Below, piece after piece: positions 2,119-19,353 of a stretch of 64,000 bases of DNA. A program made the translations under genes and the position numbers. A model generated the notes under the pieces. The model was not told the DNA's origin and did no database searches. It was given only the letters and a program-made list of their open reading frames with translations. How positions within the stretch are numbered: the first letter of the stretch is position 1; every line of letters begins with the position of its first letter. The DNA is taken from NCBI RefSeq assembly GCF_009834915.1, contig NZ_WVHS01000003.1:1-64000 (forward strand). The letters are read 5' to 3'. Source of the DNA: Hufsiella ginkgonis. GTDB taxonomy: Bacteria; Bacteroidota; Bacteroidia; Sphingobacteriales; Sphingobacteriaceae.

Positions 2119-2454
2119 ATGATCATTTTTCTTAAGGTACTTTTTAGCGTGGTTCTCTTGTGGATGTGCTACATCGTGATCGGCACTTCTATTGCCCATA
2201 ATCTTTTTACAGAATGGGATCACCTGGCCTCCATCGCCTGGATGCGCGCCACGCTTTGGGATTTTTATGCCAACATCCTGGTGATCTATTGCTGGGTATG
2301 CTATAAGGAGCGGAATTGGTGGCTTAAGGGATTATGGCTGGTATTGTTAGTCACGTCAGGCAGTATTGCTGCCGCTGTTTTTATGCTCATCCAGCTATTC
2401 AGGCTAAACCCTGCTGAAGGGTTAAAAGAACTTTTTTCGAAGCGATATGGGTAA
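2119..2454 (+). CDS. DUF1475 small membrane protein
   Basis: A 111-residue integral membrane protein with about three hydrophobic segments (roughly residues 3-23, 48-68 and 72-92) and a short charged C-terminus. The composition and the 'EWDHLASIAWMRATLWDFYANIL' region suggest the DUF1475 family, whose function is unknown. Its last 8 bases overlap the next gene, a DUF1295 membrane reductase-like protein, so the two are almost certainly translationally coupled. The pair opens the lipid-modification locus that runs to 9.05 kb. Confidence 0.75.
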   Translation: MIIFLKVLFSVVLLWMCYIVIGTSIAHNLFTEWDHLASIAWMRATLWDFYANILVIYCWVCYKERNWWLKGLWLVLLVTSGSIAAAVFMLIQLFRLNPAEGLKELFSKRYG

Positions 2455-3241
2455 TTATTCGGTTTGGTGGCTGGTTCTGATCAGCCTGGTGGCTTGCTGT
2501 GGCATCATGGCGCTGGTTTGGCTCTGGGCGCATAAGATCAGGAATGCGGGTGTGGTCGACATTTTCTGGTCATATAATTTCCCGGTCATTGGCATTATCC
2601 TGCTGCTGCTGGCGCCAGGATTTGAAACCCGTAAATGGCTCATTTGCGGGATGACGATCGTTGCCGGGTTGCGGCTGGGAACCCATTTGTCCGCCAGGAT
2701 CATCAGCCATCTTGACGAAGAGGAAGGCCGTTACCGGCAGCTTCGCAAGGAGTGGGCGCCGTCAGCGGAGCGGAAGTTTTTCTTTTTCTTCCAGCTCCAG
2801 GGAATTTCGAATGTATTGCTGGCGGCCCCGTTCTTTGTAATTACCATGAATACGGAACCCCGGCTATCTGCTTTTGAATACGCCGGCTTTATATTATGGC
2901 TTATTAGCGTTTCGGGCGAAGCCCTTGCAGACCGGCAACTGGCGGCGTTCAAAAAAGACCCGGATAAAAAAGGCAATGTATGCGATACGGGCTTATGGCA
3001 TTATTCGCGTCACCCGAATTACTTCTTCCAGTGGATGATGTGGATGTCGTACTTCGTATTCGCCCTGGCATCGCCCTATGGCTGCGTGGCGGTGATCAGC
3101 CCCGCCGTTATTCTTTACCTGCTGTTGAAGGTTACGGGTATCCCGGCGACTGAAGAGCAGTCGCTGTGCTCAAAAGGAGCGGCATTTAAGAGGTACCAGG
3201 AGAAAGTGAGCGTATTTGTTCCGTGGTTTCGAAAGGGTTAA
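2447..3241 (+). CDS. DUF1295 / steroid 5-alpha-reductase-like membrane protein
   Basis: A 264-residue polytopic membrane protein with about six to seven hydrophobic segments. Near residues 186-196 it carries YSRHPNYFFQW, the Arg-His-Pro-Asn-Tyr motif shared by DUF1295, steroid 5-alpha-reductase and isoprenylcysteine methyltransferase families. That motif lies in the cofactor-binding part of those enzymes. DUF1295 members are presumed NADPH-dependent reductases of lipid double bonds, but the substrate here is unknown. It overlaps the DUF1475 gene by 8 nt and precedes a run of fatty-acid-modifying enzymes, which supports a lipid substrate by context. Confidence 0.87.
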   Translation: MGNYSVWWLVLISLVACCGIMALVWLWAHKIRNAGVVDIFWSYNFPVIGIILLLLAPGFETRKWLICGMTIVAGLRLGTHLSARIISHLDEEEGRYRQLRKEWAPSAERKFFFFFQLQGISNVLLAAPFFVITMNTEPRLSAFEYAGFILWLISVSGEALADRQLAAFKKDPDKKGNVCDTGLWHYSRHPNYFFQWMMWMSYFVFALASPYGCVAVISPAVILYLLLKVTGIPATEEQSLCSKGAAFKRYQEKVSVFVPWFRKG

Positions 3242-3455
3242 TATTCACGTAAAAGGGTTTTCGTAAGGGGCGCTAAAAGTAGTCCTGCTTCGCGCCCTTG
3301 GCGTGAGCCCTCAATAATCAGCATCGGCGCTTTATGAACCGGTAAACGGGCCCACTGCGCATAAGAATAATTGAAAACTAATTGCCGCCAAATCCGGATG
3401 GACTTAAATCACGTAATCCTGGTACATAGAATGTTAACCCAGCCTTATACAAGTT
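3242..3455. other. Intergenic gap with weak GC hairpin
   Basis: This 214-nt gap between the DUF1295 gene and the next methyltransferase has no convincing coding potential. GGGCGC (3268-3273) pairs with GCGCCC (3292-3297) to form a stem with an 18-nt loop and a short T tail, possibly a weak terminator. No clear TAnnTTTG promoter was found for the downstream gene. Confidence 0.4.
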
Positions 3456-4490
3456 ATGTGGTACGATAAATTGATTGAACAAAATAAGGTTCCCGACCTG
3501 GTCCTTCGCAAAGGCATACGCAGGCGCTTAAAGCAGCGGCTGAGCGACGAGAACAAGGGCAGTGTTGAGCACCAGCAGGCACACCTGATGCAGCTGATCG
3601 GCAAGCTGAAAGTATCGCCGATCGCCGTGAACACCGCTGAAGCAAACGAGCAGCATTACGAGGTACCCGCACAGTTTTACCGGTACTGTCTCGGGAAGAA
3701 CCTCAAATACTCATCAGGTTACTGGAAAAATGGGGTTACCGATATCAATACTTCAGAAGATGACATGCTTGCGCTCACCTGCCAGCGTGCCGAGCTTACA
3801 GACGGGCAGGATGTGCTTGAACTGGGGTGCGGCTGGGGATCATTATCGTTGTACATGGCAACTAAGTTCCCGGGGAGCCGGTTTAAAGTAGTTTCCAACT
3901 CGCGGACGCAGAAGGAGCACATCGACGGACAGGCAGCGGCGAGAGGCATCACCAACCTTAAGGTGATCACGGCGGATATGAACACGTTTACCGTCGACGA
4001 ACAGTTCGACCGTGTGGTATCTGTCGAAATGTTCGAGCACATGCGCAACTACCAGCTGTTGCTCGCCAGGATAGCTTCCTTCCTCAGGCCTGATGGAAAG
4101 TTATGGATCCACATCTTTACTCATAAAGAATATGCTTATCTTTTCGAAGTGATCGATGATACCGACTGGATGAGCAAGTACTTCTTCACCGGGGGGATCA
4201 TGCCCAGCGACGACCTGGTCCTTTATTTTAACGACGACCTCGTGGTCGAAAAGCACTGGCACGTGAGCGGGTCTCATTATGGGAAAACCGCTGAAGCCTG
4301 GCTGCGCAATATGGACGCGCACAAGAAAGAGATCGTGCCGCTGTTCGAACAAACCTATGGCAGTGAAAACGCGCTGAAATGGTGGGTATACTGGCGGATC
4401 TTTTACATGGCCTGTGCGGAGCTCTGGAATTACAATAACGGCAACGAATGGTTCGTGAGCCACTATTTATTTCATAAAACAAACAAATGA
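3456..4490 (+). CDS. CFA-synthase-family SAM methyltransferase, coclaurine N-methyltransferase-like
   Basis: A 344-residue SAM-dependent methyltransferase of the cyclopropane-fatty-acid synthase family (COG2230). Visible motifs are YSSGYW (85-90), the SAM-binding LELGCGWG (121-128), VVSVEMFEHM (187-196) and WIHIFTHKE (217-225). From memory, the stretch from the EMFEH motif through 'YFFTGGIMPS', 'HWHVSGSHY' and the C-terminal 'YNNGNEW' follows plant coclaurine/tetrahydroprotoberberine N-methyltransferases more closely than E. coli Cfa. This points to the CNMT-like branch. The substrate is unknown: an amine headgroup or an acyl chain are both possible. The stop overlaps the next start (ATGA, 4 nt). 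Confidence 0.88.
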   Translation: MWYDKLIEQNKVPDLVLRKGIRRRLKQRLSDENKGSVEHQQAHLMQLIGKLKVSPIAVNTAEANEQHYEVPAQFYRYCLGKNLKYSSGYWKNGVTDINTSEDDMLALTCQRAELTDGQDVLELGCGWGSLSLYMATKFPGSRFKVVSNSRTQKEHIDGQAAARGITNLKVITADMNTFTVDEQFDRVVSVEMFEHMRNYQLLLARIASFLRPDGKLWIHIFTHKEYAYLFEVIDDTDWMSKYFFTGGIMPSDDLVLYFNDDLVVEKHWHVSGSHYGKTAEAWLRNMDAHKKEIVPLFEQTYGSENALKWWVYWRIFYMACAELWNYNNGNEWFVSHYLFHKTNK

Positions 4491-5620
4491 TCCGGTTCAT
4501 CCTGCTTCTATTGCTCTTCCTGTTTTCGTTGCTCACTGTTTTTAAGGCGTTTGAGTTTCACCTGTGGCTCATCGCTATTCTTGCGGGAGAGCTTTCGTGG
4601 GTATTCGCGCTGATCGCAGGAATAGTACTGGCCACCGGTTACCGCTTCGGAAAGTACCAGATGCCTGGAACGGTTTTGGGGATCCTGGCTGTTATCCTGT
4701 TTTTAACACCGGTCTTCAGGGGCTTGATGGTTGCCAATAAGTTATCAACAAAGTTCGGGGCGGCGTTCGGCCCCGGCACTGCAAATGTGGATAACGCGGC
4801 TGAAATGCCCTATAACCCGTTCAAATCACTGTATTACCGGCGTAAGGAGGTACCTTTTTCGTCGTTAACTTATGTGAATTACGGGAAAGAATCACTTAAT
4901 CTCGATTTTTATGCTTCACAGATCGCCGGCAAGCGGCCCTGCGTTATCGTAGTGCACGGTGGCTCCTGGAAGGGAGGCAACAGCAGGCAGATCCCGGAGC
5001 TGAATGGCTTGCTGGCCGAAAAAGGTTACCAGGTGGCGGCTATCAACTATCGTAAAGCACCCGCATACCGGTCGCCGGCCCCGGTAGAAGACGTAAGGGC
5101 CGCAATGGGTTACCTGCGCAGGCATGCCGACAGCCTGCAGATCGATACCGGCAGGTTCGTGCTCATCGGGCGGTCTGCCGGTTCGCAGATCGCGCTCCTG
5201 GCTGCCTATAGCCTGGCCGACCCCTCGATAAAAGGCGTGGTCGATTTTTATGGCCCTGCCGATATGGTCTGGGGATATTCGATTCCGTCGAACCCGCTGA
5301 TCATGGATTCGCGAAAAGTGATGAGCGATTACCTCGGCGGTCCGTATGAAAAGGTCCCCGGCAATTATGCGGCAAGCTCGCCGCTGGAGTTTGTAAGCAG
5401 GCGATCGCCGCCGACCCTGATTATCCACGGCGAAAATGACGTGCTGGTGGCCTATGAGCACAGTCGCCGGCTAAATGAGAAGCTGCAGGAGAACGGCGTT
5501 AAGCATTTCTGGCTGCAGTTACCCTGGGCTACACACGGGTTCGATTATATACAGAATGGTCCCGGCGGGCAGCTATCAAACTATGTGATCGAACGTTTTT
5601 TACGTTACGCAACGAAATAA
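4487..5620 (+). CDS. Membrane-anchored alpha/beta hydrolase (esterase/lipase type)
   Basis: A 377-residue protein with two or three N-terminal membrane segments (about residues 2-18, 26-50 and 60-82), followed by an alpha/beta-hydrolase domain of the Abhydrolase_3/BD-FAE type. The oxyanion-hole motif HGGSW is at 157-161, the nucleophile Ser230 sits in GRSAG, and Asp318 (GENDVLV) and His350 (THGFDY) complete the triad. It probably hydrolyses an ester at the membrane. It overlaps the preceding methyltransferase by 4 nt and precedes the FAD enzyme by 1 nt, so it belongs to the same operon and may act on the same lipid. Confidence 0.87.
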   Translation: MIRFILLLLLFLFSLLTVFKAFEFHLWLIAILAGELSWVFALIAGIVLATGYRFGKYQMPGTVLGILAVILFLTPVFRGLMVANKLSTKFGAAFGPGTANVDNAAEMPYNPFKSLYYRRKEVPFSSLTYVNYGKESLNLDFYASQIAGKRPCVIVVHGGSWKGGNSRQIPELNGLLAEKGYQVAAINYRKAPAYRSPAPVEDVRAAMGYLRRHADSLQIDTGRFVLIGRSAGSQIALLAAYSLADPSIKGVVDFYGPADMVWGYSIPSNPLIMDSRKVMSDYLGGPYEKVPGNYAASSPLEFVSRRSPPTLIIHGENDVLVAYEHSRRLNEKLQENGVKHFWLQLPWATHGFDYIQNGPGGQLSNYVIERFLRYATK

Positions 5621-5621
5621 T

Positions 5622-6881
5622 ATGCATAAAACGGCCATCATTGGCACCGGTATCGCCGGTATGGGTTGCGGTCACTTTCTTCACCGCGAAACAGATCTTA
5701 CGTTTTACGAACAGAATGATTACGTGGGCGGCCACACCAATACGGTAACGGTAGACGAAAACGGCAAACCGGTGTACATCGATACCGGCTTTATGGTATT
5801 TAACTACAAAACGTATCCAAACCTGTGTAAGCTGTTTACCGAGATCAACGCGCCGGTTAAAAAAACCGACATGTCTTTCAGCGTACAGCATGTGCCGAGC
5901 GGGCTCGAGTACAGTGGCTCGAGCGTAAATCACCTGTTCGCACAGCGGAAGAATATTTTTAATCTTTCCTACCTCCGGATGCTGCGGCAGATAAGCCGTT
6001 TCAATAAAGAAAGCGTCCGGATCCTCGATGATCCAAGGTATGCGGACTATTCGATCGGCCGGTACATTCGTGAATTTAATTTCGGGGAGGAAATGCTCTG
6101 GAAGTACCTGGTACCCATGAGCTCGGCGGTTTGGTCGACCCCGATGGAGCAGATGCTCGACTTTCCCGCCGTAACCCTGATCCGTTTTTTCCTGAACCAT
6201 GGCTTTTTAGGGCTCGATACACAGCACCAGTGGTATACGCTCGAAAAGGGCAGCCAATCCTACCGTGAGATCCTGATCCGTCCGTTTAAAGATAAGATCT
6301 ATTTAAACCGGGGGGCGGTAAAAGTTTCACGCGCCAACGGGAAGGCGGTCGTGCATGCGTCGGATGGCTCGCAGGAGGTGTTCGACCGCGTGATCCTGGC
6401 CTGCCACGCCGATCAGGCATTGGCATTGCTGGAACAGCCCTCCAATGAGGAGGATAGGCTGTTATCCACATTTAAGTACCAATACAATAAGGCGGTTCTC
6501 CACACCGACGAAAGCATTATGCCCAAATCAAAGCTGGCGTGGAGTAGTTGGAACTACCGGATCCGCGAAGAGAATGGCGCTTTACAACCGGGTACCATTT
6601 ATTGGATGAACCGCTTGCAGGGCGTATCAGGCAAAAAAAACTATTTCGTTTCCATCAACCCGCATAGCGACCTCGCCGGGAATAAGGTCCTGAAAGAATT
6701 GGATTACGAGCATCCGCTATTTGATGTGCCGGCCATAAACGCACAGGCGGAATTGAAAAAATTAAATGAAACAGGTCCTGTCTATTTCTGCGGCAGCTAT
6801 TTTAAATATGGGTTCCATGAGGATGCGTTTGCGAGCGCGGTGGAGTTGTGCAGGGGATTACCAGCGATCGGCTGCCAATGA
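5622..6881 (+). CDS. FAD-dependent amine-oxidase-like oxidoreductase (COG2907 type)
   Basis: A 419-residue flavoprotein. The N-terminal dinucleotide-binding motif IIGTGIAGMG (6-15) is followed by an acidic ribose-binding residue (Glu30) and GGHTNTV (36-42), as in COG2907 NAD/FAD-binding proteins. The C-terminus carries 'YFCGSYFKYGFHEDAF', the second FAD-binding element. Members of this group occur widely beside DUF1365 and CFA-family methyltransferases, as here. In alphaproteobacteria related clusters belong to photo-oxidative stress responses, and a flavin desaturase takes part in furan fatty acid synthesis. Oxidation or desaturation of an acyl chain is the likely role here, by inference. 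It overlaps the DUF1365 start by 4 nt. Confidence 0.9.
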   Translation: MHKTAIIGTGIAGMGCGHFLHRETDLTFYEQNDYVGGHTNTVTVDENGKPVYIDTGFMVFNYKTYPNLCKLFTEINAPVKKTDMSFSVQHVPSGLEYSGSSVNHLFAQRKNIFNLSYLRMLRQISRFNKESVRILDDPRYADYSIGRYIREFNFGEEMLWKYLVPMSSAVWSTPMEQMLDFPAVTLIRFFLNHGFLGLDTQHQWYTLEKGSQSYREILIRPFKDKIYLNRGAVKVSRANGKAVVHASDGSQEVFDRVILACHADQALALLEQPSNEEDRLLSTFKYQYNKAVLHTDESIMPKSKLAWSSWNYRIREENGALQPGTIYWMNRLQGVSGKKNYFVSINPHSDLAGNKVLKELDYEHPLFDVPAINAQAELKKLNETGPVYFCGSYFKYGFHEDAFASAVELCRGLPAIGCQ

Positions 6882-7738
6882 TCACTGACTTTAAAGCGCC
6901 AAGCCGGAACCGACAACCGATCCTGATGAAAGCCCTCCCCAACTCCTGCCTCTACAAAGCCCGGGTAATGCACCACCGGCTGTCGCCGAAGGAGCATAGC
7001 TTTCACTATGATATTTTTATGTTTTACCTGGATCTTGACGAGATCGATGGCTTGTCGGCACGATTACGGTTCATGAGCAGGAATCGCTTTAACCTCTTCA
7101 ATTTCAGGGATAAAGATCATCTGCAGTTGCCCCGGGAAAAACCGGAGACAAGTAAAACCACCAGGCAACATATCATCGGTTATCTTGCCGGGCAAGATAT
7201 TAACATCGGCAACGGCCGGATCATGGTGCTCACCAATTTATGTACGCTGGGATACCAGTTTAACCCGGTGTCGTTTTATTTCTGTTATGATGAGAAGGAG
7301 CGTCCGTTATGTGCGGTGGTAGAAGTATGCAACACGTTCCGGGAGATGAAGCCCTATTTGCTTGGCCTGGAAACAAGGAACGGTGATCACTTCCGGTTAA
7401 ATACTGCAAAGGACTTTTACGTTTCACCGTTCATTGACATGGATACCCGTTTCGATTTCGACCTGCAGGTACCCGGCCAGAAGCTGCGGATCCGGATCGA
7501 CGATTTTGACCAGGCCGGTAAACGTTTTTTTATCAGTACGTTAACGGGAGAAAGTGTGCCGTTGACCGATGCGAAGCTGCTAGCCTATTTCCTTAGCTTT
7601 CCGCTTATTACCTTAAAGGTGATCGGGCTTATCCATTGGCAGGCGTTGAAGTTGTGGCTTAAGAAGCTGCCTTTTCACAAGAAAGCCGATGATAAGCACC
7701 TTCAAAAAGACGTTTACCGCCCGTACAAGACGAAATAA
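6878..7738 (+). CDS. DUF1365 family protein
   Basis: A protein of about 286 residues of the DUF1365 family (COG3496). It shows the family signatures 'CLYKARVMHHRLSP' near the start, 'FHYDIFMFYLDLDEI', 'LGYQFNPVSFYFCYD' in the middle, and 'KDFYVSPFIDMD'. The family has no established biochemistry but accompanies COG2907 flavoproteins and CFA-like methyltransferases in many bacteria. The ATG at 6878 overlaps the upstream stop as ATGA. An ATG at 6926 is closer to the usual family start and cannot be excluded; a GTG at 6848 is less likely. Confidence 0.88.
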   Translation: MITDFKAPSRNRQPILMKALPNSCLYKARVMHHRLSPKEHSFHYDIFMFYLDLDEIDGLSARLRFMSRNRFNLFNFRDKDHLQLPREKPETSKTTRQHIIGYLAGQDINIGNGRIMVLTNLCTLGYQFNPVSFYFCYDEKERPLCAVVEVCNTFREMKPYLLGLETRNGDHFRLNTAKDFYVSPFIDMDTRFDFDLQVPGQKLRIRIDDFDQAGKRFFISTLTGESVPLTDAKLLAYFLSFPLITLKVIGLIHWQALKLWLKKLPFHKKADDKHLQKDVYRPYKTK

Positions 7739-7811
7739 TTTTACGATCGAAAAACTTTTCAGCAGGGAAAGTTCGTAGATAACGACAATTATATACCTAA
7801 CAGTCTGCTAC

Positions 7812-9050
7812 ATGGCTAACACGCTTACACTCGTTAGAAAAAGTGGTTTTTACCAGGATATTGTACTGAAAGTACTTGCCGGAATGAACAGGGGCAGGCT
7901 TTACCTTACCTTGCCCTGCGGCGAGAACATTACCATCGGGGATGGTAAGGGCACCGCTTTGGCCAGGATCACCATCGTAGACAACGAATTTTATAAACGC
8001 ATTATCCTTTACGGGGATATCGGTTTTGGCGAGGCTTATGTTGACGGGCTTTGGGAAACCGATAACATCACCGGCGTGATCAATTGGGTGCTGTACAATA
8101 TTGACAATACCCCGGTGGTTTCCGGCGGCAAATCGCGCTTTATTGCACTAAACCTGCTTAAGTGGTTCAACAAGCTTATCCATTCAAAAAGAGATAATAC
8201 ACTTTCCGGCTCCCGCCGGAATATTGCCGCCCATTACGACCTCAATAACGATTTCTTCACCAGCTTTCTCGACCCCACGATGACTTATTCGAGCGCTTAC
8301 TTTTTTAAAGAAGGCTTATCGCTCGAAGAAGCGCAGTATGCCAAATATGAGCGGCTCTGCCGACAGCTCCATCTTAAAGCGACAGACCATGTGCTCGAAA
8401 TAGGCAGCGGCTGGGGAGCGAACGCTATTTACATGGCCAAGAACTATGGCTGTAAAGTTACTTCGCTTACCATTTCCGAAGAACAGCTAAAGCTGGCCCG
8501 CGAACGCGTGAACGGGGAAGGTCTTGCTGGCAAGGTGGAGATCCTGCTGATGGATTATCGCCATATCCGGGGCCGGTATGACAAGATCGTGTCGGTAGAA
8601 ATGCTCGAAGCAGTTGGCTACAAACATCTCGACCAATATTTTAGGTGCTGCCACGAGCTCCTGAAACAGGAGGGGATCCTGGCGATACAGGTAATTACCA
8701 GCCCCGATTCGCGCTACCGGAGCTTACGGAACGGCGTCGACTGGATACAGAAACATATTTTCCCTGGATCGCTGCTGCCATCGGTTGCGGCCATCAACTC
8801 GGCCGTTAACCGCACCGGCGATATGACGCTGGTAGACCTCAAAGACCTCGGCCTCGACTATGCCGCTACCTTAAAGACCTGGTTCGAACAGTTTAATCAA
8901 AACCTGCAGAAAGTACATGCCCTGGGGTTCGACGATGCTTTTGTCCGCAAGTGGAATTATTACCTCTGCTACTGCGAGGCCGCCTTTACCATGCGTAATA
9001 TCAATGTGATGCAGCTGGTGTATAGCAGGCCCAATAATGTTGAGCGTTAA
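7812..9050 (+). CDS. CFA-synthase-like SAM methyltransferase with His-to-Gln change
   Basis: A 412-residue COG2230 enzyme with the full two-domain layout of cyclopropane fatty acid synthases. The N-terminal lipid-binding domain contains GFGEAYVDGLW (71-81). The catalytic domain has the conserved Met-x-Tyr-Ser segment (157-160), SAM-binding LEIGSGWG (195-202) and SVEMLEAVGY (261-270). Glu266 matches the E. coli Cfa glutamate that helps bind bicarbonate. The E. coli active-site histidine of the LLHTIG motif is Gln293 here (AIQVIT). That substitution is typical of the copies found next to DUF1365, and suggests simple methylation rather than cyclopropanation. It follows DUF1365 after a 73-nt gap. 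Confidence 0.9.
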   Translation: MANTLTLVRKSGFYQDIVLKVLAGMNRGRLYLTLPCGENITIGDGKGTALARITIVDNEFYKRIILYGDIGFGEAYVDGLWETDNITGVINWVLYNIDNTPVVSGGKSRFIALNLLKWFNKLIHSKRDNTLSGSRRNIAAHYDLNNDFFTSFLDPTMTYSSAYFFKEGLSLEEAQYAKYERLCRQLHLKATDHVLEIGSGWGANAIYMAKNYGCKVTSLTISEEQLKLARERVNGEGLAGKVEILLMDYRHIRGRYDKIVSVEMLEAVGYKHLDQYFRCCHELLKQEGILAIQVITSPDSRYRSLRNGVDWIQKHIFPGSLLPSVAAINSAVNRTGDMTLVDLKDLGLDYAATLKTWFEQFNQNLQKVHALGFDDAFVRKWNYYLCYCEAAFTMRNINVMQLVYSRPNNVER

Positions 9051-9061
9051 CGTACGACCTG

Positions 9062-10558
9062 CTAAAACTGTCCCTGATGCCGGTAATCGCCCGAGGGCCT
9101 TTTAATGGTCTTTTTTAACGGGATCTGCATGCCGTTCGTTTGTTCCAGCCAGTTGAAGAGCTCCCCGGCAAGTTGTTTCTGGATCCGCGTATAAGCGGTA
9201 TCCAGTACGAGGTTATGCATTTCCAGCGGGTCTTTTACCAGGTCGTACAGTTCGTGCGTATCCCAGATGCCCCAGGGCCTGATGTATTTGTACTGGTCGG
9301 TGCGCACACCGAAGATGGTGGGCGTCATCGGGAAATCGTACTCCCAGAAGTATTCATAAAAGATCTTGTCGCGCCAGCCGCTCTCGTCGCCGCGTAACAG
9401 TTGGCCGAACGATTTACCCGGCATGTAATCCGGTTTTTTCAGGCCGGCCCATTCCAGCACGGTGGGCGCGATATCGATGTTTTGTACCATCTTCGTGATC
9501 GTTTTCCCGCCGTTAAACAATTTTGGCGACCATACCAGGAAGGGAACTTTTACGGATTCTTCATAGAAATGGCGTTTATCGATCAGTCCGTGCTCACCCC
9601 AGCTGAACCCGTTGTCGCCCATATAAATTACCACGGTGTTTTTATCAAGGCCGGTTTCCTCCAGGTAGTTCATTACGGCACCTACGCTTTCGTCTACCGC
9701 GCCAAGTGTTTCGCAATATTTACGCACTAACTCATCAATGGGCTGGTGCGCGTGGTAGGGAAAATCTACGCCGTGCCAGCTGTAGCGCTGCTGTTTTACC
9801 CAGTCGGGCCAGCCATATTTTTTGTACTCGTCCGTTTGGGTCTGGAAAAAAGTTACGGGAAGGGCGTACTGCTTGCCGCTGTACATCCCTGCATGTCTTT
9901 TAGCGGGCTCCACGGGCGCATGTACGGCTTTATGGGATAAGTACAAGAAGAACGGCTTCTTTGGGTCACGTGCTTTTAACCAGGAGATGGCATGTTCGGT
10001 TAGCAGGTCGGTGATATAGGTGGAATCGGTATACTTTACCTGTTTGCCATCGATGTTTAGCTCCGGGTTCCAGTAAACGCCTTGTCCTTTAAAGCTTTCC
10101 CAGTGATCGAATCCCTTTCGCGGCTTGTCGTCGTCGTTGCCCATGTGCCATTTACCGAAAAAAGAGGTCTGGTATCCCGACCGTTGCAAGTATTGCGGGA
10201 AAACTAACAGGTTGGCAGGTTCGGGCGCCACGTTATCCACGATGGTATGTACATGCGAATACTGCCCGGTGAGGATCGAGGTACGGCTGGGAGAACAAAG
10301 TGAAGTGGTAACGAACGCATTCCTGAAATAAGCGCCATGGCTGGCCATGCGGTCCATGTTTGGCGTTTTTAACCAGGGGATCTTGCCGGTGAAACCCATA
10401 AAATCGTTCCGGTGATCGTCTGTGAGAATGAAAACGACATTCAGCCGGGGCGATGTCCTCGCTGATTTGGGAAGATCGGGCAATGTTTGCGCGGCAATAT
10501 TATTAACACCTGCCAGCTGGAACAGCACAAGGGCCACGTGGATAAATCTTTTTGCCAT
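9062..10558 (-). CDS. Exported type I sulfatase
   Basis: A 498-residue sulfatase of the alkaline-phosphatase superfamily. After a signal peptide (about residues 1-23, ending in IAAQ) come the metal-binding DD (47-48) and the sulfatase signature CSPSR. Its Cys88 would be converted to formylglycine by a maturation enzyme encoded elsewhere. 'GDNGFSWGEHGL' and 'KRHFYEESVKVP' further on match the glucosamine/heparan-type S1 sulfatases. The substrate is probably a sulfated glycan ester in the periplasm; the exact subfamily needs SulfAtlas placement. The ATG at 10558 is chosen because it begins the signal peptide. It converges on the CFA-like gene. Confidence 0.92.
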   Translation of the reverse strand: MAKRFIHVALVLFQLAGVNNIAAQTLPDLPKSARTSPRLNVVFILTDDHRNDFMGFTGKIPWLKTPNMDRMASHGAYFRNAFVTTSLCSPSRTSILTGQYSHVHTIVDNVAPEPANLLVFPQYLQRSGYQTSFFGKWHMGNDDDKPRKGFDHWESFKGQGVYWNPELNIDGKQVKYTDSTYITDLLTEHAISWLKARDPKKPFFLYLSHKAVHAPVEPAKRHAGMYSGKQYALPVTFFQTQTDEYKKYGWPDWVKQQRYSWHGVDFPYHAHQPIDELVRKYCETLGAVDESVGAVMNYLEETGLDKNTVVIYMGDNGFSWGEHGLIDKRHFYEESVKVPFLVWSPKLFNGGKTITKMVQNIDIAPTVLEWAGLKKPDYMPGKSFGQLLRGDESGWRDKIFYEYFWEYDFPMTPTIFGVRTDQYKYIRPWGIWDTHELYDLVKDPLEMHNLVLDTAYTRIQKQLAGELFNWLEQTNGMQIPLKKTIKRPSGDYRHQGQF

Positions 10559-10647
10559 AGTAAGTCTGATTGGCAGGATTCCTTCGGCAAGCTCAGGAAC
10601 TAACCCGCAGCGCAAACTTACCCCGAATGCTGGTAAGATAGTTAATC

Positions 10648-10791
10648 CTATTTATCCCTTTTTACTTTTTCGTATCCCTTTTTGGTGCGGATCTGTGCCT
10701 CGCGGAATTCGTCTTTTTCGGCCAGCGGCCGCTCTGTTTTTAATTTGGGATGCGTTGACTCCTTTTTGGCGCTTTCTTTTTTGTTTTCCAT
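10648..10791 (-). CDS. Small lysine/glutamate-rich protein, 47 aa
   Basis: A short frame on the minus strand reads MENKKESAKKESTHP..., is very rich in Lys and Glu, and ends in KVKRDK. It has no hydrophobic segment and no recognisable domain. It lies 89 nt upstream of the sulfatase in the same direction, and the coding composition looks protein-like. I infer a real small cytosolic protein of unknown function, but conservation has not been tested. Confidence 0.5.
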   Translation of the reverse strand: MENKKESAKKESTHPKLKTERPLAEKDEFREAQIRTKKGYEKVKRDK

Positions 10792-10958
10792 AACGATGTA
10801 ATTGTTTGTAAATGATCAGGACACTTTACAGATAACTTTTTAATAGCGGGGATCGTTTTAAAATTCTGATCTTTCATGTCGTCCAGGTCCGGTAAACTGG
10901 ATAGTATTTATCTTCGCCGTTGCCAAGTTGCTGCGAAGCGCTTGCTTAACCGATCGCC

Positions 10959-15872: not shown

Positions 15873-17201
15873 ATGTCCCAGCCCCTTAAACGCGCCCTTA
15901 CCGCCATTCACCTTTGGGCTATTGCGGTAGGCCTGGTGATATCGGGGGAGTATTTCGGGTGGAATTACGGCTGGGATGCGGCCGGCACCGTCGGGTTCCT
16001 GATCGCCACGTTACTGATCACGGTAATGTACGTCACGTTTATTTTCAGCTTCACGGAGCTTACCTCGGCCATTCCGCATGCCGGCGGCCCGTTCGCGTAT
16101 TCGTACCGGGCATGTGGCCCGTTGGGCGGCTTTATCGCCGGGTACGCCACCCTGGTTGAGTTTGTTTTTGCGCCGCCCGCCATCGCGCTTGCATTGGGGA
16201 GCTATGTGCATTTTCTTCACCCGGCGGCACCGGTATTGGCGGTAGCCTTCGGATGCTATGTCCTGTTTATCGTGATCAACCTGCTGGGGGTTAAGGAGTC
16301 GGCCATGTTTTCGCTGGCGGTTACCGTCCTGGCGGTGGCAGAGCTGCTGTTGTTTATGGGTATCGTGGCGCCCGCTTACGAGCACACCAACTTTATGGCC
16401 AATCCTATGCCACATGGCTGGCCGGGCGTATTTGAGGCCCTGCCCTTCGCCATCTGGTTTTATCTGGCCATAGAAGGTGTGGCCATGGTGGCCGAGGAGG
16501 TGAGGGATCCGGCACGCAACATCCCCAGGGGATATTTATGGGGAATGTTTACCCTGGTAGTGCTTGCCATGGGGGTAATGGTGCTTACCGGCGGCATTAC
16601 CGACTGGCGCCGGCTGAGCAGGATCGACTACCCGCTGCCCGAAGCCATCGGCATTGTATTGGGAAAGACCAGCAGCCTGACCAGGCTTTTTGCCGGGATC
16701 GGTCTTTTCGGGCTGATCGCTTCCTTTCATAGTATTATCCTGAGCTATTCGCGCGAGATCTATGCGCTGGCAAGAAGCGGGTACCTTCCCAGGTTCCTGT
16801 CGCAGGTGCATCCCAAAACCCGGGTGCCGCACTGGGCGCTCATTGCCGGCGGCCTGGTGGGCTGTATCTCGCTGCTTACCAATACTACCGGGCAGGTAAT
16901 TATCCTTTCGGCGATGGGAGCTGTGGTGATGTACATTACCAGTATGATCAGCCTGTTCGTGATCCGTAAAAAAGAGCCGGGGCTGCACCGGCCGTTTATC
17001 GCGCCGTTTTATCCGTTGTTCCCGGCCATTGCGTTGGTGCTGTCGGTGATTTCGCTGGCAGCCATCACCTGGTTTAACCCGCGCCTGGCCCTGCTATTCG
17101 TGGCCGGGATGGTATTGATGGGCGGGATCTGTTTCCTGGTGCCTGGTTCGGGGAAGACCCTTAACGGCGCGCACGTACCCGGAACCGGTTCGAACCCCTG
17201 A
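15873..17201 (+). CDS. Ethanolamine permease (APC superfamily)
   Basis: A 442-residue inner-membrane amino acid/polyamine/organocation transporter with about 12 hydrophobic segments. The N-terminal 'GLVISGEYFGWNYGW' and 'FTELTSAIPHAGGPFAYS' regions are characteristic of ethanolamine permeases. It lies 2 nt before eutB, and eutB overlaps eutC, giving a three-gene operon. The permease would import ethanolamine from degraded phosphatidylethanolamine. No shell, EutP, EutQ or EutR genes are present nearby. Confidence 0.92.
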   Translation: MSQPLKRALTAIHLWAIAVGLVISGEYFGWNYGWDAAGTVGFLIATLLITVMYVTFIFSFTELTSAIPHAGGPFAYSYRACGPLGGFIAGYATLVEFVFAPPAIALALGSYVHFLHPAAPVLAVAFGCYVLFIVINLLGVKESAMFSLAVTVLAVAELLLFMGIVAPAYEHTNFMANPMPHGWPGVFEALPFAIWFYLAIEGVAMVAEEVRDPARNIPRGYLWGMFTLVVLAMGVMVLTGGITDWRRLSRIDYPLPEAIGIVLGKTSSLTRLFAGIGLFGLIASFHSIILSYSREIYALARSGYLPRFLSQVHPKTRVPHWALIAGGLVGCISLLTNTTGQVIILSAMGAVVMYITSMISLFVIRKKEPGLHRPFIAPFYPLFPAIALVLSVISLAAITWFNPRLALLFVAGMVLMGGICFLVPGSGKTLNGAHVPGTGSNP

Positions 17202-17203
17202 TC

Positions 17204-18586
17204 ATGGCTTATAAATACAGCATCGGACACCTTACGTATACGTTTAACGACTTAAAGACCCTGCTTGCCCGTGCTACTCCTTTCCGGTCGGGAGATGCGC
17301 TTGCAGGTGTTGCGGCAACTACCTACCAGGAGCATGTAGCCGCACAGATCGCATTGGCGGATGTGCACCTCGACGTATTTCTCCGCGAAGCGCTTGTCCC
17401 TTACGAACAGGATGAAGTAACCCGCCTCATTATCGACTCGCACGATGCGGCGGCTTTCAAACCCATCGGCCATTTTACCGTGGGGCAGTTCCGCGATTGG
17501 CTGCTAAGCGACGCCTGCGATACAGCGGTGCTGAAGTCACTGGCAAACGGGATCACGCCCGAGATGGCCGCCGCAGTATCCAAGCTTATGCGGAACCAGG
17601 AGCTTATCGCGGCAGCAAAAAAATGCGAAGTGCTTACGTCTTTTCGTAATACGATCGGGTTAAGCGGGCGGTTGTCTACCCGGCTGCAGCCCAATCACCC
17701 TACAGACGACCCTGCCGGGATCTCCGCCAGCATTATTGATGGGATCCTGTACGGGAGCGGCGATGCGGTGATCGGTATTAATCCGGCGGGTGACAGCCCC
17801 GCCAACACACGCCGCCTCCTGGAGATGATCGATAATTTCCGGCGGCAGTTTGCCATACCCACGCAATCCTGTGTGCTTTGCCACGTAACCACCACGCTCG
17901 ACCTGATCGAGAAACATGCGCCCGTCGATCTTACTTTTCAATCGATTGCTGGTACCCAAAGCGCCAACGCCAGTTTCGGGATCAGCCTGTCGCTCCTGGA
18001 AGAGGCTTACCAGGCTACATTATCACTTAATCGCGGCACGATCGGCAATAATGTGATGTATTTTGAAACGGGACAGGGAAGTGCGTTATCCGCCAACGCC
18101 CATTACGGCATCGATCAGCAGACGTGCGAAACACGCGCCTATGCGGTGGCCCGCAAATTCAACCCGCTGCTGGTGAACTCGGTAGTGGGTTTTATCGGTC
18201 CTGAATACCTTTACAATGGCAAACAGATCATCCGCGCTGCGTTAGAAGACCATTTTTGTGCGAAGCTGCTCGGCCTTCCCATGGGGATGGATGTTTGTTA
18301 TACCAACCATGCCGAAGCCGACCAGGACGACATGGATACGCTGATCACGCTTCTCGGAGTATCCGGCTGTACTTTTATTATGGGCGTGCCCGGCGCAGAC
18401 GATGTGATGCTCAACTACCAGTCGACGTCATTTCACGACGCCCTCTACCTGCGCAGGACGCTTGGCTTGCGTCCCGCCCCCGAGTTTGAGGCCTGGCTGG
18501 TACAGCAGGGAATTATGGACAGGCAAGGTAACCAGCTGCCGGATGCCGGGACCTATACACGTTTGTTGGGAGGGATTGGTCAATGA
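17204..18586 (+). CDS. eutB: Ethanolamine ammonia-lyase large subunit
   Basis: A 460-residue protein, close to the usual length of EutB (about 453). Family segments include 'GEDALAG-like' text in the N-terminal part (GDALAGVAAT), 'LSTRLQPNHPTDDP', 'NPAGDSPANTRRLLE', 'FQSIAGTQSANASFG' and 'YFETGQGSALSANAH', which form the TIM-barrel active site. With EutC and adenosylcobalamin it splits ethanolamine to acetaldehyde and ammonia. It starts 2 nt after the permease stop, and its end overlaps eutC by 4 nt (ATGA). Confidence 0.96.
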   Translation: MAYKYSIGHLTYTFNDLKTLLARATPFRSGDALAGVAATTYQEHVAAQIALADVHLDVFLREALVPYEQDEVTRLIIDSHDAAAFKPIGHFTVGQFRDWLLSDACDTAVLKSLANGITPEMAAAVSKLMRNQELIAAAKKCEVLTSFRNTIGLSGRLSTRLQPNHPTDDPAGISASIIDGILYGSGDAVIGINPAGDSPANTRRLLEMIDNFRRQFAIPTQSCVLCHVTTTLDLIEKHAPVDLTFQSIAGTQSANASFGISLSLLEEAYQATLSLNRGTIGNNVMYFETGQGSALSANAHYGIDQQTCETRAYAVARKFNPLLVNSVVGFIGPEYLYNGKQIIRAALEDHFCAKLLGLPMGMDVCYTNHAEADQDDMDTLITLLGVSGCTFIMGVPGADDVMLNYQSTSFHDALYLRRTLGLRPAPEFEAWLVQQGIMDRQGNQLPDAGTYTRLLGGIGQ

Positions 18587-19353
18587 GCGGTGAAGAAAAG
18601 AACAGGCATCCTTACATCGTCAGCGATCATACCGCGGCGCTGAAACAATTTACGCGTGCCAGGATCGCCCTGGGGCGCACGGGCACTTCGGTACCCCATA
18701 AAGAAGCGCTCGCATTTAAGCTGGCGCATGCCGCTGCGCGTGATGCGGTATTTTCTATGCTCGACGTAAACGCGCTTCACGATGAATTAAAGCCGGCAGG
18801 TCTGCCGGTAATGCACCTGAAAAGCAAGGCTGCCGACCGCGACCAATACCTGCAGCGACCCGACCTGGGGAGAGAGCCCGATGAGCGCTCCGTCGCCCTG
18901 GTTAAAGCTTATGGATGTGATAGCTGTGACGTATGCATCATCCTGGCTGATGGTTTATCTTCGGAAGCCGTGAACCGGCATGCACCAGCGTTGGTGCGTC
19001 TGTTGGTAAACAGGCTGGCGCAGGCCGGGTTTACACTTGGCCCATTGATAATTGCCGAACAGGCCAGGGTTGCGTTTGCTGATCCTGTAGGGCAATTACT
19101 GGGGGCGGGGCTAAGCCTCATATTAATCGGTGAACGGCCCGGGCTCAGTTCGCCGCAAAGCATGGGCGCCTATATTACCTACCGGCCGATGCGCGGGCTT
19201 ACCGATGAGGGCAGGAACTGCGTGTCGAATATTCATCCCGCCGGACTTTCTATCGGCCAGGCGGCCGAAAAGATCGCCTACCTGGTACGGGAATCGCTGC
19301 GGCGCAAAGTATCCGGCATCGCCCTGAAAGACGAAACGGGATTGCTGCCTTAG
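18583..19353 (+). CDS. eutC: Ethanolamine ammonia-lyase small subunit
   Basis: A 256-residue EutC, slightly shorter than the E. coli protein (about 295), mostly for lack of an N-terminal extension. Recognisable segments are 'ARIALGRTGTSVPHKEALAFKLAHAAARDAV' near the start, 'LSSEAVNRHAP' in the middle and 'IGERPGLSSPQSMGAY' in the cobalamin-binding half. It forms the EutBC lyase with the preceding gene. Its stop overlaps the convergent lipoprotein gene by 4 nt (TTAG). Confidence 0.95.
   Translation: MSGEEKNRHPYIVSDHTAALKQFTRARIALGRTGTSVPHKEALAFKLAHAAARDAVFSMLDVNALHDELKPAGLPVMHLKSKAADRDQYLQRPDLGREPDERSVALVKAYGCDSCDVCIILADGLSSEAVNRHAPALVRLLVNRLAQAGFTLGPLIIAEQARVAFADPVGQLLGAGLSLILIGERPGLSSPQSMGAYITYRPMRGLTDEGRNCVSNIHPAGLSIGQAAEKIAYLVRESLRRKVSGIALKDETGLLP

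Follow-up and report, generated by a model that had tools for sequence, protein, structure and literature searches.

The 64,000-nucleotide stretch of Hufsiella ginkgonis DNA analysed here (contig NZ_WVHS01000003.1, positions 1 to 64,000; "the window" below) carries at 2119-9050 a seven-gene operon that very probably makes a dimethyl furan fatty acid, which would serve as a sacrificial singlet-oxygen scavenger in the membrane. Each of its four soluble enzymes is the predicted orthologue of a different one of UfaM, UfaD, UfaO and FufM, which form the pathway by which Rhodobacter and Rhodopseudomonas make furan fatty acids (FuFA). In that pathway UfaM (like cyclopropane fatty acid synthase, CFA), UfaD (an FAD desaturase) and UfaO (DUF1365) convert 18:1 phospholipid chains to a monomethyl FuFA whose ring oxygen comes from O2; R. 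palustris FufM adds a second methyl, and FufM alone sufficed for dimethylation in R. sphaeroides (PMC7380195). An earlier note on this DNA had tied its COG2907-DUF1365-CFA trio to methylated furan fatty acids and photo-oxidative stress and had proposed a fuller pathway to a methylated or branched acyl product. Those three genes are UfaD-UfaO-UfaM and make up the whole monomethyl pathway (PMC7380195), and the larger proposal is supported and can be sharpened to a dimethyl FuFA, with the enzyme resembling coclaurine N-methyltransferase as the predicted FufM.

We infer by orthology that the Hufsiella locus carries out the steps that were shown for the R. sphaeroides and R. palustris enzymes (PMC7380195). 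All four genes are on the + strand. UfaM (7812-9050; Pfam CMAS, 292 bits), the predicted acyl-chain C-methyltransferase of the first step, would methylate an unsaturated acyl chain of a membrane phospholipid, giving a methylated trans-alkene; UfaD (5622-6881; Pfam Amino_oxidase, 62 bits, with the N-terminal FAD motif GTGIAG), a predicted FAD-dependent desaturase of the methylated chain, would turn this into a methylated conjugated diene; UfaO (6926-7738; DUF1365, Pfam 6.9e-77, 259 bits), the predicted ring-closing oxygenase, would insert O2-derived oxygen and close the furan; and FufM (3456-4490; Pfam CMAS, 131 bits), the predicted furan fatty acid C-methyltransferase, would put the second methyl on the ring, taking monomethyl to dimethyl furan. 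The two methyltransferases are assigned by tree and residues as well as by family.

The reference sequences are the loci of Rhodopseudomonas palustris JSC-3b, which has a ufaD-ufaO-ufaM run, in the same order as in the window, and a separate DUF1295-fufM pair, whereas the Bacteroidota have all four enzymes in one operon. With a single DUF1365 gene and two strong CMAS genes in the JSC-3b genome, orthologues are simple to assign. Identities to the R. palustris counterparts are 44% for FufM, 40% for UfaM, 37% for UfaD (over 424 columns, 288 bits) and 34% for UfaO, and the key residues of UfaO are conserved in 13-14 of 14. The window thus shares with the R. sphaeroides and R. palustris pathway all four orthologues, the same residue signatures and the same tree positions; it differs in the addition of DUF1475 and a membrane hydrolase, and no RpoE/ChrR pair is seen adjoining it.

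The methyltransferase tree was built from 48 proteins, including E. coli CFA, ordinary Bacteroidota CFAs and only two plant sequences. A 100/100 split separates FufM-like proteins (the window's, R. palustris FufM and the plant coclaurine and pavine N-methyltransferases) from the CFAs and UfaMs. On the other side of that split the 7812-9050 product clusters with R. palustris UfaM (99/99), away from E. coli CFA and the ordinary Bacteroidota CFAs. The residues agree with this division (positions are given in E. coli CFA numbering): the signature E236/E239/H240/H266/F268/Y317 is common to all 98 FufMs, and A240 with Q266 to all 48 UfaMs, the window's proteins included in each case, while typical CFAs have G236, H240 and H266. 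Across these 98 FufMs and 48 UfaMs the bicarbonate-site residues part the groups without exception.

The open reading frame (ORF) check of the window places seven ORFs at 2119-9050, all on the + strand, and both they and their Pfam families agree with the earlier note. The remaining three are a DUF1475 membrane protein of 111 aa (2119-2454; Pfam 7.8e-16, 59 bits), which matches the Pfam profile in its C-terminal half only; a DUF1295 membrane protein (2447-3241; Pfam 2.1e-63, 214 bits), which its tree position puts in a FufM-linked clade and its AlphaFold2 model tentatively in the steroid/sterol-reductase fold class; and an alpha/beta hydrolase with a hydrophobic N-terminal region (4487-5620; BD-FAE/Abhydrolase_3, Pfam 9.2e-44, 150 bits). 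The genes are closely packed: DUF1475 and DUF1295 overlap by 8 bp and FufM and the hydrolase by 4 bp, and 1 bp lies between hydrolase and UfaD, 44 bp between UfaD and UfaO and 73 bp between UfaO and UfaM; the sole larger gap, of 215 bp, is at 3242-3455 between DUF1295 and FufM. The UfaO ORF opens with a GTG at 6848; its relatives begin right ahead of the motif NSCLY, which makes the ATG at 6926 the likelier start, and the 44 bp is counted from there. The window's two CMAS genes are the only ones above the family cut-off in the 5.2-Mb genome.

The distribution of the pathway was surveyed in 294-297 Bacteroidota genomes. DUF1365 (UfaO) was found in 9 of them, belonging to six families and eight genera, and FufM in the identical 9 (called at >=56% identity and 465 bits, the next best match having 112 bits); the hypergeometric p for this co-occurrence is 2.5e-17, a figure that overstates the independent evidence because the sampled genomes are related. 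All eight other Bacteroidota loci have the core order FufM-UfaD-UfaO-UfaM too, and alpha-, beta- and gammaproteobacteria likewise have these gene families grouped, which argues that the grouping exceeds chance. In the literature searched, FuFA synthesis in Bacteroidota was not found. Four of the Bacteroidota clusters (L010, L014, L015, this last by homology, and L017) are led by a desaturase gene, which probably supplies the double bond; the window genome has two homologues of it elsewhere, with 57-69% identity. Plasmids of Acinetobacter, Burkholderia, Rhizobium tropici, Cupriavidus, Mesorhizobium and Caballeronia also carry the four enzymes and DUF1295 in one cluster. Among the plasmids with complete FuFA loci (L005, L006 and others) some, from Acinetobacter and Burkholderia, are typed as mobilizable or conjugative, which suggests that the pathway moves between species. 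In L011 (genome G099) a small opposite-strand gene pair at 10212-10888, similar by eye to a toxin of the RelE/HigB type with an XRE antitoxin, lies between ufaD and ufaO.

The earlier note also had a DUF1295 reductase, the hydrolase and the second methyltransferase joining the pathway. For the methyltransferase, the predicted FufM, this stands. The hydrolase is an accessory, present in 2 of the 9 Bacteroidota loci and absent from 7; among the loci compared, 24 have a same-family hydrolase close to FufM. As a guess, the hydrolase might strip damaged chains. DUF1295 and DUF1475 would likewise be accessories, and they are candidate parts of the FuFA pathway. In a FufM neighbourhood set of 80 loci, mostly alphaproteobacterial, DUF1295 is <=250 bp from FufM in 65, and it stands immediately ahead of FufM in all of ten plasmid loci. 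RPA0923, of which a deletion strain was made in PMC7380195, is probably the DUF1295 gene beside R. palustris fufM. A 100/100 split divides the linked DUF1295s from Bacteroidota and from alpha-, beta- and gammaproteobacteria, the window's included, from the unlinked Bacteroidota copies. Of 294 Bacteroidota genomes 9 carry DUF1475, and 8 of those 9 are FuFA genomes (p 6e-14); in G099 the DUF1475-DUF1295 pair is kept on a separate contig (L134), still grouping with the window's DUF1295. L029 and other alphaproteobacterial loci repeatedly have, next to the FuFA genes, DUF2177 (which the singlet-oxygen regulon of Chlamydomonas includes too), DUF2147, a lipocalin and, after FufM, an unnamed protein.

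The AlphaFold2 model of DUF1295 (pLDDT 95) has as its nearest folds in Foldseek delta14-sterol reductase and the steroid 5-alpha-reductases (SRD5A), then the ICMT methyltransferases. The leading matches (4quv, 7c83 and 7bw1) have probabilities of 0.93-1.00 with weak E values of 0.04-0.09, and Pfam Steroid_dh matches at 1.1e-8. A C-terminal RHPNY motif is common to DUF1295 and this superfamily, and the predicted fold may be so too; against that, the matches as a whole are weak (E 0.04-0.16) and DUF1295 is a Pfam family of its own. FufM being enough for dimethylation, DUF1295 is not needed there, and a reductase would be likelier to act on oxidised furan than in synthesis. One guess, which we consider unlikely, is that linked-clade DUF1295 is a membrane reductase of the ene-dione left after the furan quenches singlet oxygen; the 1,4-diketone so formed can close back to the furan, so that the antioxidant would be regenerated instead of being used a single time.

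The alternative with the best claim to attention accepts that the operon makes FuFA but gives DUF1295 and DUF1475 some other role in the membrane, for instance in modifying a pigment or a sterol-like lipid, with only the stress response in common. This is quite possible, if somewhat short of an even chance. The linked DUF1295 type is missing from three FuFA genomes (G062, G120 and G156), and G093 has a linked-type DUF1475-DUF1295 pair (L133, 8808-10097) in a genome where FufM and UfaO/DUF1365 were not found; from both facts DUF1295 appears to be an accessory and not a core step. On the other hand, linked-clade DUF1295 adjoins FufM across phyla, which counts against this alternative. An initial claim that full-length DUF1295 co-occurs with all nine FuFA genomes was given up, as the tree shows the copies in G062, G120 and G156 to be of the unlinked type, and it was narrowed to the linked clade.

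Much less can be said for the proposal that the products of both methyltransferases are fatty acids with a cyclopropane ring or a saturated methyl branch, which the flavoprotein and DUF1295 reduce or modify as in 10-methylstearate synthesis. Both enzymes are of the CMAS family and the predicted DUF1295 fold is reductase-like, as this would have it; the residues around the bicarbonate site, which in E. coli CFA are C139, E239, H266, I268 and Y317, speak against it. In UfaM-type enzymes the ligand H266 is replaced by Q (48/48) and C139 by S or A, and the window's UfaM, which has S, E, Q and Y at the 139, 239, 266 and 317 positions, retains E239 and Y317 of E. coli CFA and lacks its C139 and H266, in a separate clade with R. 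palustris UfaM. Such an altered site would fit a methyltransferase whose reaction ends by proton loss from a neighbouring carbon, leaving an alkene and not a cyclopropane. The proposal also leaves DUF1365 (UfaO) without a role despite its perfect co-occurrence with FufM. It is very improbable on these grounds, and cyclopropane synthesis by the window's methyltransferases in particular was ruled out on residues and tree.

The weakest alternative, in which the 3456-4490 enzyme stands outside the lipid pathway and methylates a soluble substrate such as a small amine, draws on its 41% identity (over the aligned region) to coclaurine N-methyltransferase, on best solved relatives that are plant N-methyltransferases (6gkv, a coclaurine enzyme, foremost) and on the moderate support (94/89) for the branch setting bacterial FufMs, the window's and that of R. 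palustris included, off from the plant enzymes, and it is hardly credible given that the protein groups with R. palustris FufM and outside the two plant sequences in the tree, has H266/F268 where those have E and I/H, and is of a type confined to genomes with UfaO. Tree, residues and co-occurrence together disfavour the possibility, which the earlier note had itself raised, that the methyltransferases act on unrelated small molecules. The plant coclaurine and pavine N-methyltransferases are similar in length to the window's FufM and ~36-41% identical over the aligned region; they act on alkaloids. In the 48-protein tree the plant benzylisoquinoline alkaloid N-methyltransferases branch beside bacterial FufM, so an enzyme that methylates furan fatty acids may have been the origin of alkaloid N-methylation.

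A link to light and singlet-oxygen stress is seen in related loci. In many proteobacterial loci an RpoE-type sigma factor (SigE, in 40 of the 80 FufM loci) and a ChrR-type anti-sigma factor (in 32) adjoin the pathway; RpoE and ChrR are the singlet-oxygen regulator pair, which controls FuFA synthesis in R. sphaeroides. In Chlamydomonas, singlet oxygen acting via SAK1 induces CFA1, a gene annotated as coclaurine N-methyltransferase, DUF1365 and DUF1295 (PMC4067076). The window locus resembles this regulon and the plant lipid-droplet proteins AtUFAMD1, AtUFAO1 and LIME1/FUFM1 in its CFA-like, CNMT-like and DUF1365 members, with DUF1295 in the Chlamydomonas list as well; those genes are eukaryotic, and FuFA synthesis by the plant proteins has been proposed by homology. 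MerR regulators with B12-binding domains, an architecture like that of the CarH/LitR light sensors, lie beside the FuFA loci L016 (5085-6032, - strand) and L017 (4365-5348, - strand), near DUF1295 of the unlinked type. As a regulator of the Hufsiella operon such a MerR/B12 light sensor was considered and set aside, none having been found in the window genome.

Several points weigh against the reading of the operon given here. No ChrR or light-sensing regulator was recognised adjoining the window locus (RpoE-ChrR was not searched for genome-wide), and the sole B12-binding_2 match of the genome is a 1239-aa ORF, probably MetH. DUF1295 is dispensable for the dimethylation step, as the sufficiency of FufM in R. 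sphaeroides indicates. The reference strain is JSC-3b, whereas the strain assayed was CGA009; identities of 34-44% allow a change of substrate; and for Hufsiella and the other Bacteroidota the pathway is predicted from sequence.

The AlphaFold2 model of UfaO is a beta-barrel (pLDDT 89), and its fold search returned nitrobindin-like barrels (best E 2.4e-3, probability 1.00, TM 0.33/0.51), matches too weak to name a cofactor; a sequence-profile search of UfaO against solved structures gave no match. The locus is flanked by a DUF72 gene on one side and a convergent sulfatase gene on the other. Farther along, at 15873-19353, are genes that by eye resemble an ethanolamine permease and then the two ethanolamine ammonia-lyase subunits. 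Scanning the window for Rfam families and tRNAs yielded no match.

What emerges is a pathway already known, met here in a new setting and with DUF1295 and DUF1475 as new candidate parts. Experiments have established the dimethyl step of FuFA synthesis in one alphaproteobacterium; the dimethyl pathway would now be extended to a compact operon in the Bacteroidota, where it has hardly been noticed so far. The new element relative to the literature searched, to which this claim is limited, is the coupling of DUF1295 with FufM; a connection of DUF1295 or DUF1475 with FuFA turned up there nowhere but in the Chlamydomonas table. Given the presence of DUF1295 in the Chlamydomonas singlet-oxygen regulon, its role would bear on the making or upkeep of these membrane antioxidants in bacteria and algae and perhaps in plants.

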